A stretch of 46,566 bases of DNA from Methanosarcina sp. DH2 (GTDB taxonomy: Archaea; Halobacteriota; Methanosarcinia; Methanosarcinales; Methanosarcinaceae): the NCBI RefSeq assembly GCF_020804225.1, contig NZ_WJBI01000002.1, forward strand, positions 450,836 through 497,401, read 5' to 3'. Position 1 is the first letter of the stretch, and the number at the start of each line of letters is the position of its first letter. Position numbers and translations under genes: made by a program. Shown in pieces: positions 28,784 through 35,351 of this stretch. The notes beneath the pieces were generated by a model that saw nothing but the letters and a program-made list of their open reading frames with translations, did no database searches and was not told where the DNA came from.

Positions 28784-30262
28784 TCAGATCTTGCAAACCT
28801 CGCTCCTCCTGAGCCAGTCAATATCAGACTGATAGAGGAGTCTCAGGTCTTTAAGTCCGAGTTTCAGCATGGCAAGCCGGCTTACCCCGAGCCCCCAGGC
28901 AAGGACGGGTTCTTTGATCCCGAAAGGTTCTGTGACTTCTTTTCTGAAGACACCTGCACCTCCGAGTTCAACCCAACCGAGGCCGTCCACATAAACCTCA
29001 GGTTCCACGCTAGGTTCTGTATAGGGGAAATATCCGGGGCGAAAGCGGACTTCTTCGAATCCCATCCTGTAGTAGAACTCTGCAAGCAGCCCGAGGAGGT
29101 CTGCAAAAGACATATCTTTACCCATGACCACGCCTTCAAGCTGTTCGAACTCGGGGGTATGGGTCGGGTCAATTGTTTCCCTGCGGTAAGCCCTGTCAAT
29201 ACAGAAGGCTTTTGCAGGAGGTTCGGGATGGTCTGCGAGATACTTTATGGTTACTGAAGTGGTATGGGTCCTGAGCACATTACGCCCGGCAAGTTCTCTG
29301 TTCCATATCCCTCCCCAGCCGCAGGAGTCAATGTCCCCTCCACTCTCGTGCATCGCTGCTACCTTATCTGAATATTCAGCTGGGATCTGGCAGGTGCTGC
29401 CGAGGTGGAATGTATCCTGCATATCTCTTGCAGGGTGGTCCTGGGGCTGGAAGAGGGCGTCAAAGTTCCAGAAAGAGCTCTGGATTATGCCGCCTTTGAT
29501 CTCTGTAAAGCCCATCTCCAGGAAGATCTGGCGCATCTGTTCGATCAGGCGCCTGTAAGGGTGAATTTTGGTCCCGTAAAGAGGTTTCGGAGTGATGTCG
29601 AGTCGGTAGGGCCTGAATTTTTTTCCTTTCCATGCACCGCTCTTCAGCAAGTCGGATGTGATCTGAGCAATTTCTTCTTCAAGGACAATACCCTGTGCTG
29701 CAAGAGCACTTCCTGCACCTGTTATTGAAACCGTCCTGAACTTCTCTTCGTGTTTTACAACAAGTTTGCGCTTTAGCAGGTCCTTTACAGTTCTTTCGTC
29801 AGCTGCAAGCTCTTCGAGAGTCTTTGCCTTGCCTGCAAAAGATGCGAGGGCTTCTTCATCTTTGCCAGCAGGGGGTTCTCCCGAAGGCACCATCAATCCG
29901 TTTTCAACCTTTGCCCATCCTTTTTTTACTAGCCAGCCGGTTGCAATTCCCACGGTTTGAGGAGAAAAACGACTCCTCAGTTCTTCAAGGGAGGTCGGGT
30001 CTTTCAGGGCATCAATTATCTGGCGCTCCGGAAGCCCGGTTTTCGTATATTCTTCTCCTTCCTTCGTAAGTGAGTAGCGTTCGAGCACTTTTTCGGAAAC
30101 GGAAGCAAGCTCTTTTTCCTGGAGCATGAAGGCTGCCTGCATTGCCGCATCCACCTGCAGTCCTGATTCCTCTTCCAGTTTATTGGGGGCTGCCGACCCG
30201 AATTCCTCAAGGGCGAGCAAGACCTTTTTCTCGTTAATTGTAAGGTTTTCCTGAGCACTCAT
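28784..30262 (-). CDS. pheS: Phenylalanyl-tRNA synthetase alpha subunit
   Basis: 492 residues, normal for archaeal PheS. The N-terminal 200 residues contain winged-helix domains that contact tRNA ([20 protein letters not shown] and following). The class II catalytic domain starts near 225: [20 protein letters not shown] (motif 1), [20 protein letters not shown] (motif 2) and [13 protein letters not shown] (motif 3). Forms an alpha2-beta2 enzyme with PheT, which is not in this window. It starts at ATG 30262. trpS is 120 bp upstream on the same strand, so co-transcription is possible. Confidence 0.96.
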
Positions 30263-30382: not shown

Positions 30383-31696
30383 TCAGTTTTTGTAGATAAT
30401 TCTGTACTCATCAAGCTGTTCCCGCGCAAGTTCCCGCTTTTCCTGATGATCTTTAAGGAATTCATGCATTTTTTCGGCTGCAAGCTGTTTGCATGAGCCG
30501 CACATCCTTGTGCCTGAGACACATTCTTGCCTTATCTCCAGCAATTCTCTATCATCATCAAGCAGGTGGAAAAGCATCAGCTCGAAGACAGAACACTCTT
30601 CAGGCTTTCCGCCAAGCTTCTTCTGCTCTTCGAGGGTTACACAGCCTCCGGTCTTTGCCCTTTTTACCTTCTTTGCCCCTTCTTTCGGGTCGTCCGTAAG
30701 GGCAATCTGACTCTCAGGGATGCTGCTGGACATTTTCCCGCCCTGCAGCCCGCTCATGAAACGGTGGTATGTGGATGCAGGAGGAATGAAAGCGTAGCCT
30801 CCTAACTCGACTGCAACCTCCCTGACAATCTTTTCAAGCCCTGCAAGATCGGGATATTCGAGCACGTCAATATGTTCTTCGTAGAGTTTTACTTTTCCGG
30901 GAATTCGTTTCTTGAGCTCCTGCAAAGCTTCTTTTTGGGCGGTTTTTCCCCGGACACTCAGGTATTTCCTTCCTGTCTTTACATCTTCTCGCTCTTCTAC
31001 CTTGAACATGTTCATTTTGCCTGCAAGCCCCCTTGTAAGGCGGAGGTGAGGGTCTTGGTCCGGACCTACGGGAACCACAACAGGCTTCGGTCCACTGAAT
31101 TCTTCGAGCTGGGGCTGGAGGATATCTGCAGCCTGGGTTGCCACGCTGAGCATATGGGAGAGGCTTGTTTCTCCTGAAAAGCCGTAAATGGCGCTCAGTT
31201 CTGAGAAATTGACTTTAGCGCCGAGTTCAAATGCAAGGTCTTTAACGCTCCCGCAACCTGACTGGAAGTAAATGAGGCCTTCGGGTTTGAAACCAAGGGC
31301 AATCAGGCTTAATATGTATTCTTCTACCCCGATTTCCCTGCACTTCTGCCAGGAAAAACCGCGCACCGAAAAAGCTTCCCTGTCCGCGATCCCTACAAAG
31401 GCTGAAGCTCCCATTTCCTGGTGCCAGACTATCTGGTCCATGACCATCTTATGCCCGAGGTGGACCCTCCCGGAAGGCATAAAACCGTCCATAACTGAAA
31501 AAGGGGCACCTGTCCGCATAGCCTCTGCAATCTGTTCGTAGTCGCGGTGCCCGAAGATGACTTTTCTCCGCATGTACTTATGCGGGGAAGGGATTTCCGG
31601 AAGTACATTTTCAAAAGGAGAAATCCCGAATTCTTCGAATAACTTGGAATAGTCAGTGATATCGCTTGAACTCCACGGGTCAAGTTTAGTATTCAT
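30383..31696 (-). CDS. trpS: Tryptophanyl-tRNA synthetase
   Basis: 437 residues from ATG 31696 ([20 protein letters not shown]); an ATG four codons upstream (31708) is possible. Class I signatures: [12 protein letters not shown] (HIGH-like HLGH) and [11 protein letters not shown] (KMSKS loop). The archaeal/eukaryotic type is shown by the N-terminal FGISPF region. Near the C-terminus [13 protein letters not shown] carries three Cys. Just upstream, 31868-31900 holds three tandem copies of CCACCTATTAT. Confidence 0.95.
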
Positions 31697-31867
31697 AAAG
31701 TCCCTCATGGGCTGCCTTTTCCCGAAAGCGCTGAAGGCAGCTTTTTTTTGCTACATAAATAAGGGTAAAGTAATTAAGAGTGTAAACTCCGTTCCGGCTA
31801 AATTGCTCTTTAAAAATACCTGCTCATATGTAAATGTTTATCTTCTGGCAGCCCCGGATACTGTCAT

Positions 31868-31984: not shown

Positions 31985-33199
31985 TTATTTCTCGCAAATC
32001 TCTTCAAACGGATAGGGTAGTTTTGCCTCTTCAGGGATTTTATCGACTAATTCCATAAACTCGGGATCATGCATGGGGCTCAAACTCTTCTGCCGCTGGA
32101 AATACGGATAGCTCCTGATCCTATGCCAGATTTCTTTTAAGGGTATTTCTTTTACATTCCCGAACCTGAAAGGAGGATAAGGGCTTGGTTTTACATCTCC
32201 ATCTGCAGTTACATGCATCCAGCGCCTGCCTGCCATTGCACCCAGCATCTGTCCTTCGAAATAGGTGTTTGAAAACATTCGGGGACCTTCCGGGTCCGAG
32301 TTTATCCTGTGATACATTTCAAGAATTGTCCTCCGGTCCCTGTCAGTAATTACAGGTTCGCCTCTTTTTTTTGGCATTGATTCCCATACCGAAAATTCAT
32401 GTACTCCAAGTTCCGATGCAAGCGCGTAGAGGGCAGGAAGTTCCTTCATGTTTGAGAAAGAGGCATGCGTTGTCATTACAACCAGGAGTCCGGCTTCAAG
32501 AGCCATTTTTATGGTTGAGATTGCTCGCTCGTAAGCTCCTTCGGATTTTCGGATAGCGTCATGTTTTTTGGGATCAGTTGAATAAACGCCGACCATGAGG
32601 GAGTGAAGTCCGGCTTCTTTCAGGCGGAGAGCAGTTTCTTTTGAGAAGTCCGTGCCCCAGGTGGAACAATTAACTATAGCGCGTTTTTTGTCCACATACT
32701 CAACAAGCTCAAAAATTTCTTCGCGCAGGAGAGGGTCATTCTCAGTAAAACTAATTATTAATGTGCCAAGTTCCAGGGCTTCATCTATTATTCTTTTAAT
32801 TGTATACGTATCCAGTTCGTCAGCATCTGTTCCCGGCGGGTACCTTGAACTGTTCTGGCGTGTAAGCTCAATGGAAACGGTTTCAGGAACATATTTTCCC
32901 AGAGCTATCTGGACTTCTGCAAAAATGAGGCGCTTGAAAACAGGACTCGGGATGGGAGGCAGCCAGGCTGAAGGAATAACCCTGTCCTCCTGTGCAAGAG
33001 CCGGTTTTTCCTCCTGCAGGCGTGAGTTAATCTTTTTCAGGATAGGGCTGCAGACTGCTTTAAGTGTTCCACTTGCCGTAAGTTTCAAGGTTTCTTCTTT
33101 ATGTCGCTGAAGGTTCACAGACAGCCCTGGAATAGAGAGAAGTTCTATATCTATGTCTCTCGCAGAAAAGTCCGGCACATTCTTTTTTTCGGGAGTCAT
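31985..33199 (-). CDS. Radical SAM/SPASM homologue lacking the cluster cysteines
   Basis: 404 residues from ATG 33199. Residues 105-280 follow a radical SAM barrel: VPETVSIELTRQNSSRYPPG where ELT-xx-CN-xx-Cxx-C is expected, SFTENDPLLREE where T-GGEPLLR is expected, then AIVNCSTWGTDFSKETALRL and GLHSLMVGVYSTDPKKHDAI. Residues 324-349, GRRWMHVTADGDVKPSPYPP, align with a SPASM segment whose cysteines would be at M328 and S339. The only Cys are 50, 178 and 402. The frame is open and regular, so this is not random decay. Probably a non-catalytic or differently acting relative. Between trpS and aIF2-beta with free spacers on both sides. Confidence 0.75.
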   Translation of the reverse strand: MTPEKKNVPDFSARDIDIELLSIPGLSVNLQRHKEETLKLTASGTLKAVCSPILKKINSRLQEEKPALAQEDRVIPSAWLPPIPSPVFKRLIFAEVQIALGKYVPETVSIELTRQNSSRYPPGTDADELDTYTIKRIIDEALELGTLIISFTENDPLLREEIFELVEYVDKKRAIVNCSTWGTDFSKETALRLKEAGLHSLMVGVYSTDPKKHDAIRKSEGAYERAISTIKMALEAGLLVVMTTHASFSNMKELPALYALASELGVHEFSVWESMPKKRGEPVITDRDRRTILEMYHRINSDPEGPRMFSNTYFEGQMLGAMAGRRWMHVTADGDVKPSPYPPFRFGNVKEIPLKEIWHRIRSYPYFQRQKSLSPMHDPEFMELVDKIPEEAKLPYPFEEICEK

Positions 33200-33571: not shown

Positions 33572-34183
33572 TTAAACCGCCCTTTCTGAGAAGGCAAGGT
33601 TTCCGCTGATTTTCTTTATCTTTACTTTGACCACATCGCCTTTTGAGGCTCCGGGCACGAAGACAGTATACTTATCTATTTTTGCTATCCCGTCACCTTT
33701 GGACCCAACGGCATCTATCCGGAGTTCGTAGGTTCCGCCTTCTTCAATGGCATCCCTGACAACCACATTGCTTACTTTTCTCTTTTTGACAGGTCTGTGA
33801 GCCCCGCAAGCAGAACATTTCAGGACAAGGACCCTATCCGTCCTTACAAGCTGGGTGTCCGGGCGTTCGCATTCCGAACACATAACGTATTCGTCCACAT
33901 AGGCCTGAATGTTGTCAGCGATCTGAGCTCTCGTAAACCTTCCCTGGAAGACTGCACGTGTGCCTTCTATCTTCCCTGCAGTTCCCAGTTCCCTGGTGAG
34001 ATATTTCATCAGGTGGTCAGGATCCCGGTTAAGGATATCTGCAATATTTCCGAAGTTATCCAGAATTGTGGTTTTGCCTTCGGAAAATATTCTCGGCTCA
34101 GGGATTACGAATCGAGCGTCCGTAGTCTCGGTGTCAGGCATCTTTGCCATTGCACGGTTCAAAAGCTCTTCGTAATCGTACAT
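33572..34183 (-). CDS. Translation initiation factor aIF2 beta with C-terminal TRAM domain
   Basis: 203 residues. The N-terminal part ([12 protein letters not shown] through [11 protein letters not shown]) is the aIF2-beta core; the zinc ribbon is Cys102-x2-Cys105 and Cys123-x2-Cys126. Residues 145-203 are a TRAM domain ([20 protein letters not shown]), an RNA-binding beta-barrel that some archaeal aIF2-beta proteins carry. Part of the aIF2 complex that delivers initiator tRNA; the TRAM tail suggests extra RNA contact. It directly follows rpl10e with a 35-bp gap, so likely one operon. Confidence 0.93.

Positions 34184-34218: not shown

Positions 34219-35351
<1,133 letters not shown>

Follow-up and report, generated by a model that had tools for sequence, protein, structure and literature searches.

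The P0 gene and its missing cluster ligands

The window, a stretch of 46,566 nucleotides from the genome of Methanosarcina sp. DH2, contains at positions 31985–33199 a minus-strand open reading frame with an ATG start, its stop codon included in these coordinates, that encodes a protein of 404 residues, here named P0 (Table 1). The plus strand of the same interval is interrupted by many stop codons. The local gene order is L10e–aIF2-beta–P0–trpS–pheS, the neighbours encoding proteins that resemble ribosomal protein L10e, the translation factor aIF2-beta and the tryptophanyl- and phenylalanyl-tRNA synthetases.

Table 1. Features of the P0 locus, with positions in the window.
Feature	Position	Strand	Basis
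P0, pseudo radical-SAM/twitch protein, full-length, 404 aa	31985..33199	-	ORF, Pfam, orthologues
N-terminal domain, residues 16-105, three strands and helices; SAWLPPIPSPVF signature common to P1 and P2	32885..33154	-	
Former [4Fe-4S]/SAM loop, residues 112-127; LTRQNSSRYPPGTDAD replaces xTRECKCNCEHCVVSG	32819..32866	-	
Former SAM-binding GGE region: FTEND; EGD in Cys-bearing P0, GGE in P1 and P2	32735..32749	-	
W181: Trp in both Cys-less clades, Pro in Cys-bearing P0	32657..32659	-	
NTYFEGQMLGAMAGRRWMH motif, residues 311-329	32213..32269	-	alignment
A321, former auxiliary-cluster Cys	32237..32239	-	
T331, former auxiliary-cluster Cys	32207..32209	-	
S339, former auxiliary-cluster Cys (PCPY to PSPY)	32183..32185	-	
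S374, former auxiliary-cluster Cys	32078..32080	-	
Ribosomal protein L10e-like, upstream syntenic neighbour	34219..34806	-	
aIF2-beta-like translation factor, 203 aa, upstream syntenic neighbour	33572..34183	-	
Tryptophanyl-tRNA synthetase-like, 441 aa, downstream syntenic neighbour	30383..31708	-	
Phenylalanyl-tRNA synthetase alpha-like, 492 aa, downstream syntenic neighbour	28784..30262	-	

Two Pfam models match P0 above their cut-offs: Radical_SAM (PF04055; 1.1e-15, 58.7 bits, cut-off 29.5), which establishes homology with the radical SAM family, and SPASM (PF13186; 7.2e-6, 26.6 bits, cut-off 21.5). No Pfam match was reported within the N-terminal domain. The Radical_SAM match begins at residue 122, just past the point at which the CxxxCxxC motif for the [4Fe-4S] cluster should lie. 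This motif is absent from P0, as is the GGE-type SAM-binding motif, and on both counts P0 does not qualify as a functional radical SAM protein. Nor does it have the auxiliary-cluster cysteines of a SPASM/twitch protein, since positions 321, 331, 339 and 374 are all occupied by other residues. The only cysteines are residues 50, 178 and 402, at exactly the off-motif positions named in the original prediction, which had described a radical SAM barrel and SPASM-type tail that had lost every Fe-S ligand with neither a stop nor a frameshift. The Pfam matches, the predicted fold and the intact 404-residue frame all agree with that description, to which only the strand (minus) needs to be added. Recoding to selenocysteine or some other form of cysteine was considered and rejected; the ligand positions carry ordinary in-frame codons for Asn, Tyr, Gly, Ala, Ser and similar residues.

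Predicted fold and nearest relatives

An AlphaFold model of P0, built from an alignment of 86 sequences, has a pLDDT of 92.5 and a pTM of 0.91, and its best PDB matches in a Foldseek search are PqqE, SkfB, SuiB, BlsE and MoaA. On these grounds an intact radical SAM fold is predicted, one that matches radical SAM/SPASM structures as had been expected. A sequence search of the PDB with P0 returns BlsE and PqqE. A control model of a Cys-bearing orthologue has the same fold, and loop confidence differs only in block 121–130 (75 versus 91), a gap between two models that we do not regard as evidence. P0 thus resembles the radical SAM/SPASM-twitch proteins in fold, domain order and the sequence of its SPASM region, but differs from them in having no [4Fe-4S] ligands at either site and in its altered SAM-binding motif.

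None of the NCBIfam equivalog models reaches its own cut-off with P0. The best-scoring named models are the heme synthase AhbD (TIGR04545; 110.6 bits) and NirJ2 (TIGR04055; 99.9 bits), both with cut-offs of 500, and the same two rank highest for the paralogues P1 and P2 described below; to judge by these scores, AhbD and NirJ2 are likely to be the nearest characterised relatives. The genome also encodes a separate, putatively AhbD-like protein (L038). A named archaeal precedent for a radical SAM pseudo protein is the haloarchaeal family TIGR04347 (pseudo_SAM_Halo, 'pseudo-SAM/SPASM protein'), to which P0 does not belong by score: it obtains 75.2 bits against a cut-off of 525, no better than with generic radical SAM models. 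Our search of the open-access literature found no paper on TIGR04347 or on radical SAM pseudoenzymes.

Clade-wide loss of the cysteines

The ligand columns, in P0 numbering, are 116, 120 and 123 for the radical SAM triad and the four auxiliary positions given above. Scanning of contigs yielded 34 P0 loci, among which the ligand cysteines are missing from each of the 21 that belong to Methanosarcina and closely related Methanosarcinaceae; the loci of Methanococcoides, Methanosalsum and Methanothrix retain them wherever the motif is covered. An order-wide search of 186 genomes, supplemented with retrieved loci, defines the Cys-less genera as g1 (Methanosarcina), g4 and g5, together with g6 and g8, whose genomes are only 1.3–1.8 Mb in size. 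Nine other genera of Methanosarcinaceae (g2, g3, g7 and g9–g14) are Cys-bearing. All seven ligands are cysteine in 15/15 Cys-bearing Methanosarcinaceae sequences, where an extra cysteine is found at column 118, and in 0/37 sequences from the three genera of the Methanosarcina clade, bar one residual cysteine at 120. The five sequences of the sister clade g6/g8 likewise lack them, except for two residual cysteines at 120. The loss described in the original prediction for a single protein is therefore conserved throughout Methanosarcina and its relatives. Having been seen in about 40 separate assemblies, it is neither chance nor artefact; a sequencing or assembly error is ruled out by the identical loss in dozens of them. 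No second, Cys-intact copy of P0 was found in the genome that contains the window, only P1 and P2 (36–38% identity) and more distant radical SAM proteins.

The former cluster loop of P0 is shorter than in the Cys-bearing orthologues, and the NTYFEGQMLGAMAGRRWMH motif is strongly conserved in Cys-less and Cys-bearing proteins, with the exception of the change from Cys321 to Ala in the Methanosarcina clade. Cys-bearing P0 proteins have EGD throughout, and not GGE, so P0 may have been atypical even before the loss. In family f4 two Cys-bearing P0 proteins (L094 and L095) have one auxiliary cysteine fewer, CPY having become SPY at residue 339, and this is an independent partial erosion.

Genes for L10e, aIF2-beta, TrpS and PheS flank P0 in g1, g4 and g5 and in most Cys-bearing genera, and in g6 the arrangement holds at least on the side of L10e and aIF2-beta. 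These common neighbours identify the Cys-less and Cys-bearing genes as positional orthologues. In many Cys-bearing genera (L071, L072, L082–L084, L101 and others) a gene for a KaiC-like ATPase lies between aIF2-beta and P0. It is missing from this site in all Cys-less genera, and a short remnant is present in L085. As a partner for P0 this neighbour (cluster 9) was rejected, being absent or a remnant in some Cys-bearing genera also.

Was the loss a single event? A tree of concatenated P1 and P2 places g1/g4/g5 as sister to g6/g8 with support of 93/96. A P0 tree rooted on P1 and P2 put g6/g8 at the base of P0, with a warning of long-branch effects, after which the P0 tree was rebuilt with the paralogues left out; with the motif (trait) columns removed, P0 unites g1/g4/g5 with g6/g8 (support 94/94). 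The replacement of Pro181 by Trp is common to both Cys-less clades. The simplest reading of these alignments and trees would be a single loss in a common ancestor followed by retention, a reading that is supported (93–94) but not decisive because of the basal position of g6/g8 in the P1/P2-rooted tree.

Selection on the Cys-less protein

Pairwise dN/dS was calculated by the Nei-Gojobori method, in which pairs with dS > 1 are saturated and values at high dS unreliable. For pairs with dS < 1, Cys-less P0 gives 0.07–0.19, compared with 0.06–0.11 for P0 of one Cys-bearing genus; in the same genomes P1 gives about 0.04–0.05 and P2 0.05–0.09. The value of about 0.1 for P0 lies well below 1, as foreseen. 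The reading frame is full-length in 40/42 Cys-less sequences. The two short ones are L105, which lies at a contig end, and L090 (G150), in which the C-terminus of P0 and two adjacent genes appear frame-shifted; since those genes are split as well, read errors are suggested.

A pseudogene is ruled out by the dN/dS of about 0.1 and the intact reading frames. It is also highly improbable that P0 is a slowly eroding relic of a function lost in the ancestor. The complete loss of the catalytic ligands and the relaxation of the former cluster loop would fit decay, but the low dN/dS, the full-length frames in all but two sequences and the retention of the gene even in genomes of 1.3–1.8 Mb speak against it. 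The original prediction had seen in P0 selection for a non-radical role, and had held that intact cysteines in related genomes would speak against this. Orthologues of this kind are present in Methanothrix and in further genera of Methanosarcinaceae. Because purifying selection on P0 continued afterwards, they date the loss rather than refute the idea, which is supported by the conserved loss, the low dN/dS and the intact predicted fold. The particular roles that the prediction put forward, those of a scaffold, a substrate binder or an inhibitor of a true radical SAM paralogue, are candidates only, though the genome does encode two Cys-intact paralogues.

Selection has not been even along the protein. 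In the Cys-less clade the entropy of the former cluster loop is 1.16, against 0.53 elsewhere (3.4% of windows being as high), whereas the cluster loop of Cys-bearing P0 has 0.33 against 0.73 elsewhere. Cys-bearing and Cys-less P0 have 71 sites in common that vary little or not at all, among them positions of the NTYFEG and GRRW motifs. A relaxed loop together with so many conserved sites gives the pattern of a cofactor site given up with other functions kept. P0 accordingly bears the marks of a pseudoenzyme: a fold that is kept (here as predicted), catalytic residues that are lost, and purifying selection.

Could the emptied protein have acquired a new chemistry? P0 might have kept its TIM barrel and substrate site for a non-radical reaction (isomerisation, hydrolysis or acid-base catalysis), or placed another cofactor in the vacated pocket. 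Its strong purifying selection, the conservation of the substrate-side motifs NTYFEG and GRRWMH and the newly fixed W181 are in keeping with such neofunctionalisation. We consider it unlikely, however, as few parts of the protein vary more in the Cys-less clade than the loop of the former active site. Only three clean fixed replacements separate Cys-bearing from Cys-less P0 (G154N, P181W and C321A), so there is no obvious new catalytic constellation.

Paralogues and prenyl-lipid genes

Two Cys-intact paralogues, P1 (37% identity to P0) and P2 (36%), are encoded in the genome that contains the window, and most of the Methanosarcinaceae genomes examined carry both. Both paralogues retain the auxiliary cysteines along with CxxxCxxC and a motif of GGE type in every sampled genome, including those of the genera with Cys-less P0. 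The gene for the geranylfarnesyl-diphosphate synthase GFPS_Meth (NF040627; 621 bits, cut-off 600) immediately precedes P1, which adjoins a CcmE-like gene and is itself followed by the ATP synthase operon; P1 has the same position behind GFPS or a homologue in other genomes that bear the three-copy set, including one Methanothrix. The CcmE-domain protein (L102:6625-7005) is encoded directly upstream of GFPS and P1, and its homologues adjoin P1 in several genera. P2 lies behind genes for UbiA and a flavoprotein of the geranylgeranyl-reductase-like GGR superfamily, an adjacency not found in Methanothrix G249 or in two other order-level genomes inspected. At E <= 1e-60 the GFPS_Meth model also matches f9 and other families that have no set, and misses f3, so that adjacency, rather than presence alone, is the marker.

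A fourth, more distant radical SAM protein, P3, is TIGR03961-like and has no SPASM match. All 9 of the set-bearing genomes tested have a clear orthologue, and only weak matches were obtained in G041 and G006, which have no set. In the genome that contains the window P3 (L215:6983-7975, G000:C25) comes immediately after the ribosomal genes L11-L1-L10-L12. P3 and P0 are about 2.4 kb apart in L078 (g6).

In G190 (f11) and G208 (f21) homologues of P0, P1, P2, GGR and UbiA, with P3 and an NMT1/THI5-like protein, are encoded in one cluster, and in G199 (f17) and G203 (f15) the same genes form two groups. The coordinates of these clusters are L195:7837-15546, L197:1445-9000, L196:3329-16868, and L198:8115-13262 with L199:8500-11609. 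These compact clusters, from four distant families of archaea, are a candidate for an operon that makes a prenylated redox lipid. Only in distant families is P0 clustered with P1 and P2. In Methanosarcina it lies among translation genes, apart from P1, P2 and P3, while P1 and P2 are strongly co-localised with putative pathway genes in Methanosarcinaceae.

The surroundings of P0 and P3 raise the question of a regulatory role, in which P0 would sense a methanophenazine precursor or SAM and control the paralogues or translation-linked expression. A ribosomal and tRNA-synthetase neighbourhood in Methanosarcinaceae, and the place of P3 behind ribosomal genes, are what such a regulator might show. 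Yet the cluster and GGE regions, both of them SAM-contacting elements, are altered in Methanosarcina, translation genes do not surround the loci of Methanothrix and f3/f4, and the synteny is older than the loss of the cysteines, which together make this role quite improbable.

A non-catalytic member of a methanophenazine pathway?

Methanophenazine carries electrons in the membrane. GFPS has been described as specific to methanophenazine, with its gene near the ATP synthase operon (PMC3017947). The rest of the biosynthetic pathway has been described as unidentified (PMC6315138) and as still to be discovered (PMC11477647), so that membership of P0, P1 and P2 in it is hypothetical. We put at about one in two the probability that evolution has turned P0 into a pseudoenzyme, which belongs, without catalysing a reaction itself, to a radical SAM set that probably makes methanophenazine. 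It is the identity of the pathway, the physical partnership and the substrate of P0 that we infer here.

Under this proposal the ancestral P0 in Methanosarcinaceae would have been a radical SAM/twitch enzyme that carried two clusters, one bound by CxxxCxxC and an auxiliary one bound by four cysteines. It would have served, with the homologous P1 and P2 and the more distant P3, a single pathway, presumably that of methanophenazine biosynthesis. The cysteines would have been lost in the common ancestor of Methanosarcina and the sister clade of small genomes, and the protein kept. The present P0 would then be a partner that carries out no radical chemistry, and may bind the shared substrate or an intermediate, or keep one Cys-intact protein (P1, P2 or P3) within an active assembly, or both. 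A bolder form of the proposal, which we offer tentatively, is that P0–P3, UbiA and the GGR-like reductase make up the missing methanophenazine pathway, with P0 as an obligate non-catalytic subunit in Methanosarcina and the sister clade. If true, one partner in a radical SAM assembly would be a pseudoenzyme, and the point at which it was decommissioned could be located on a tree.

P0 offers a datable case of a pseudoenzyme, with Cys-bearing orthologues and paralogues as controls, in the genetically tractable Methanosarcina. We know of no earlier case that combines a dated loss with such controls and a connection to an unsolved pathway. The work on P0–P3 points to a small number of candidate genes for methanophenazine, and this opens the question to direct testing by gene deletion.

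The product may of course be some other redox compound of these archaea, prenylated or lipid, or else a modified protein, with P0 still a pseudoenzyme. Peptide modification is common among SPASM proteins, the context of P0 in Methanosarcinaceae is one of translation genes, and we know of no lipid carrier in the four distant families that have the clusters. Such a product is possible but somewhat doubtful, given the adjacency of GFPS to P1 and of UbiA and GGR to P2, and the fact that the set and the menaquinone marker MqnC exclude each other. Among 393 genomes of the phylum the three-copy set is found in 99 and MqnC, over its cut-off, in 81, with an overlap of 0; within the order, MqnC occurs in families f5 (g25 and g26) and f2, from which the set is absent. 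Published work places a menaquinone in ANME-1 and methanophenazine in ANME-2a-c and ANME-3 (PMC9012536). From kinship and markers, f3/f4 would correspond to ANME-2, g25 of f5 to Methanoperedens, and g6/g8 to Methanimicrococcus-like organisms. One genome, G252 (L204), has MqnC over the cut-off and a single P2-like copy (57% identity), the three-copy set being absent.
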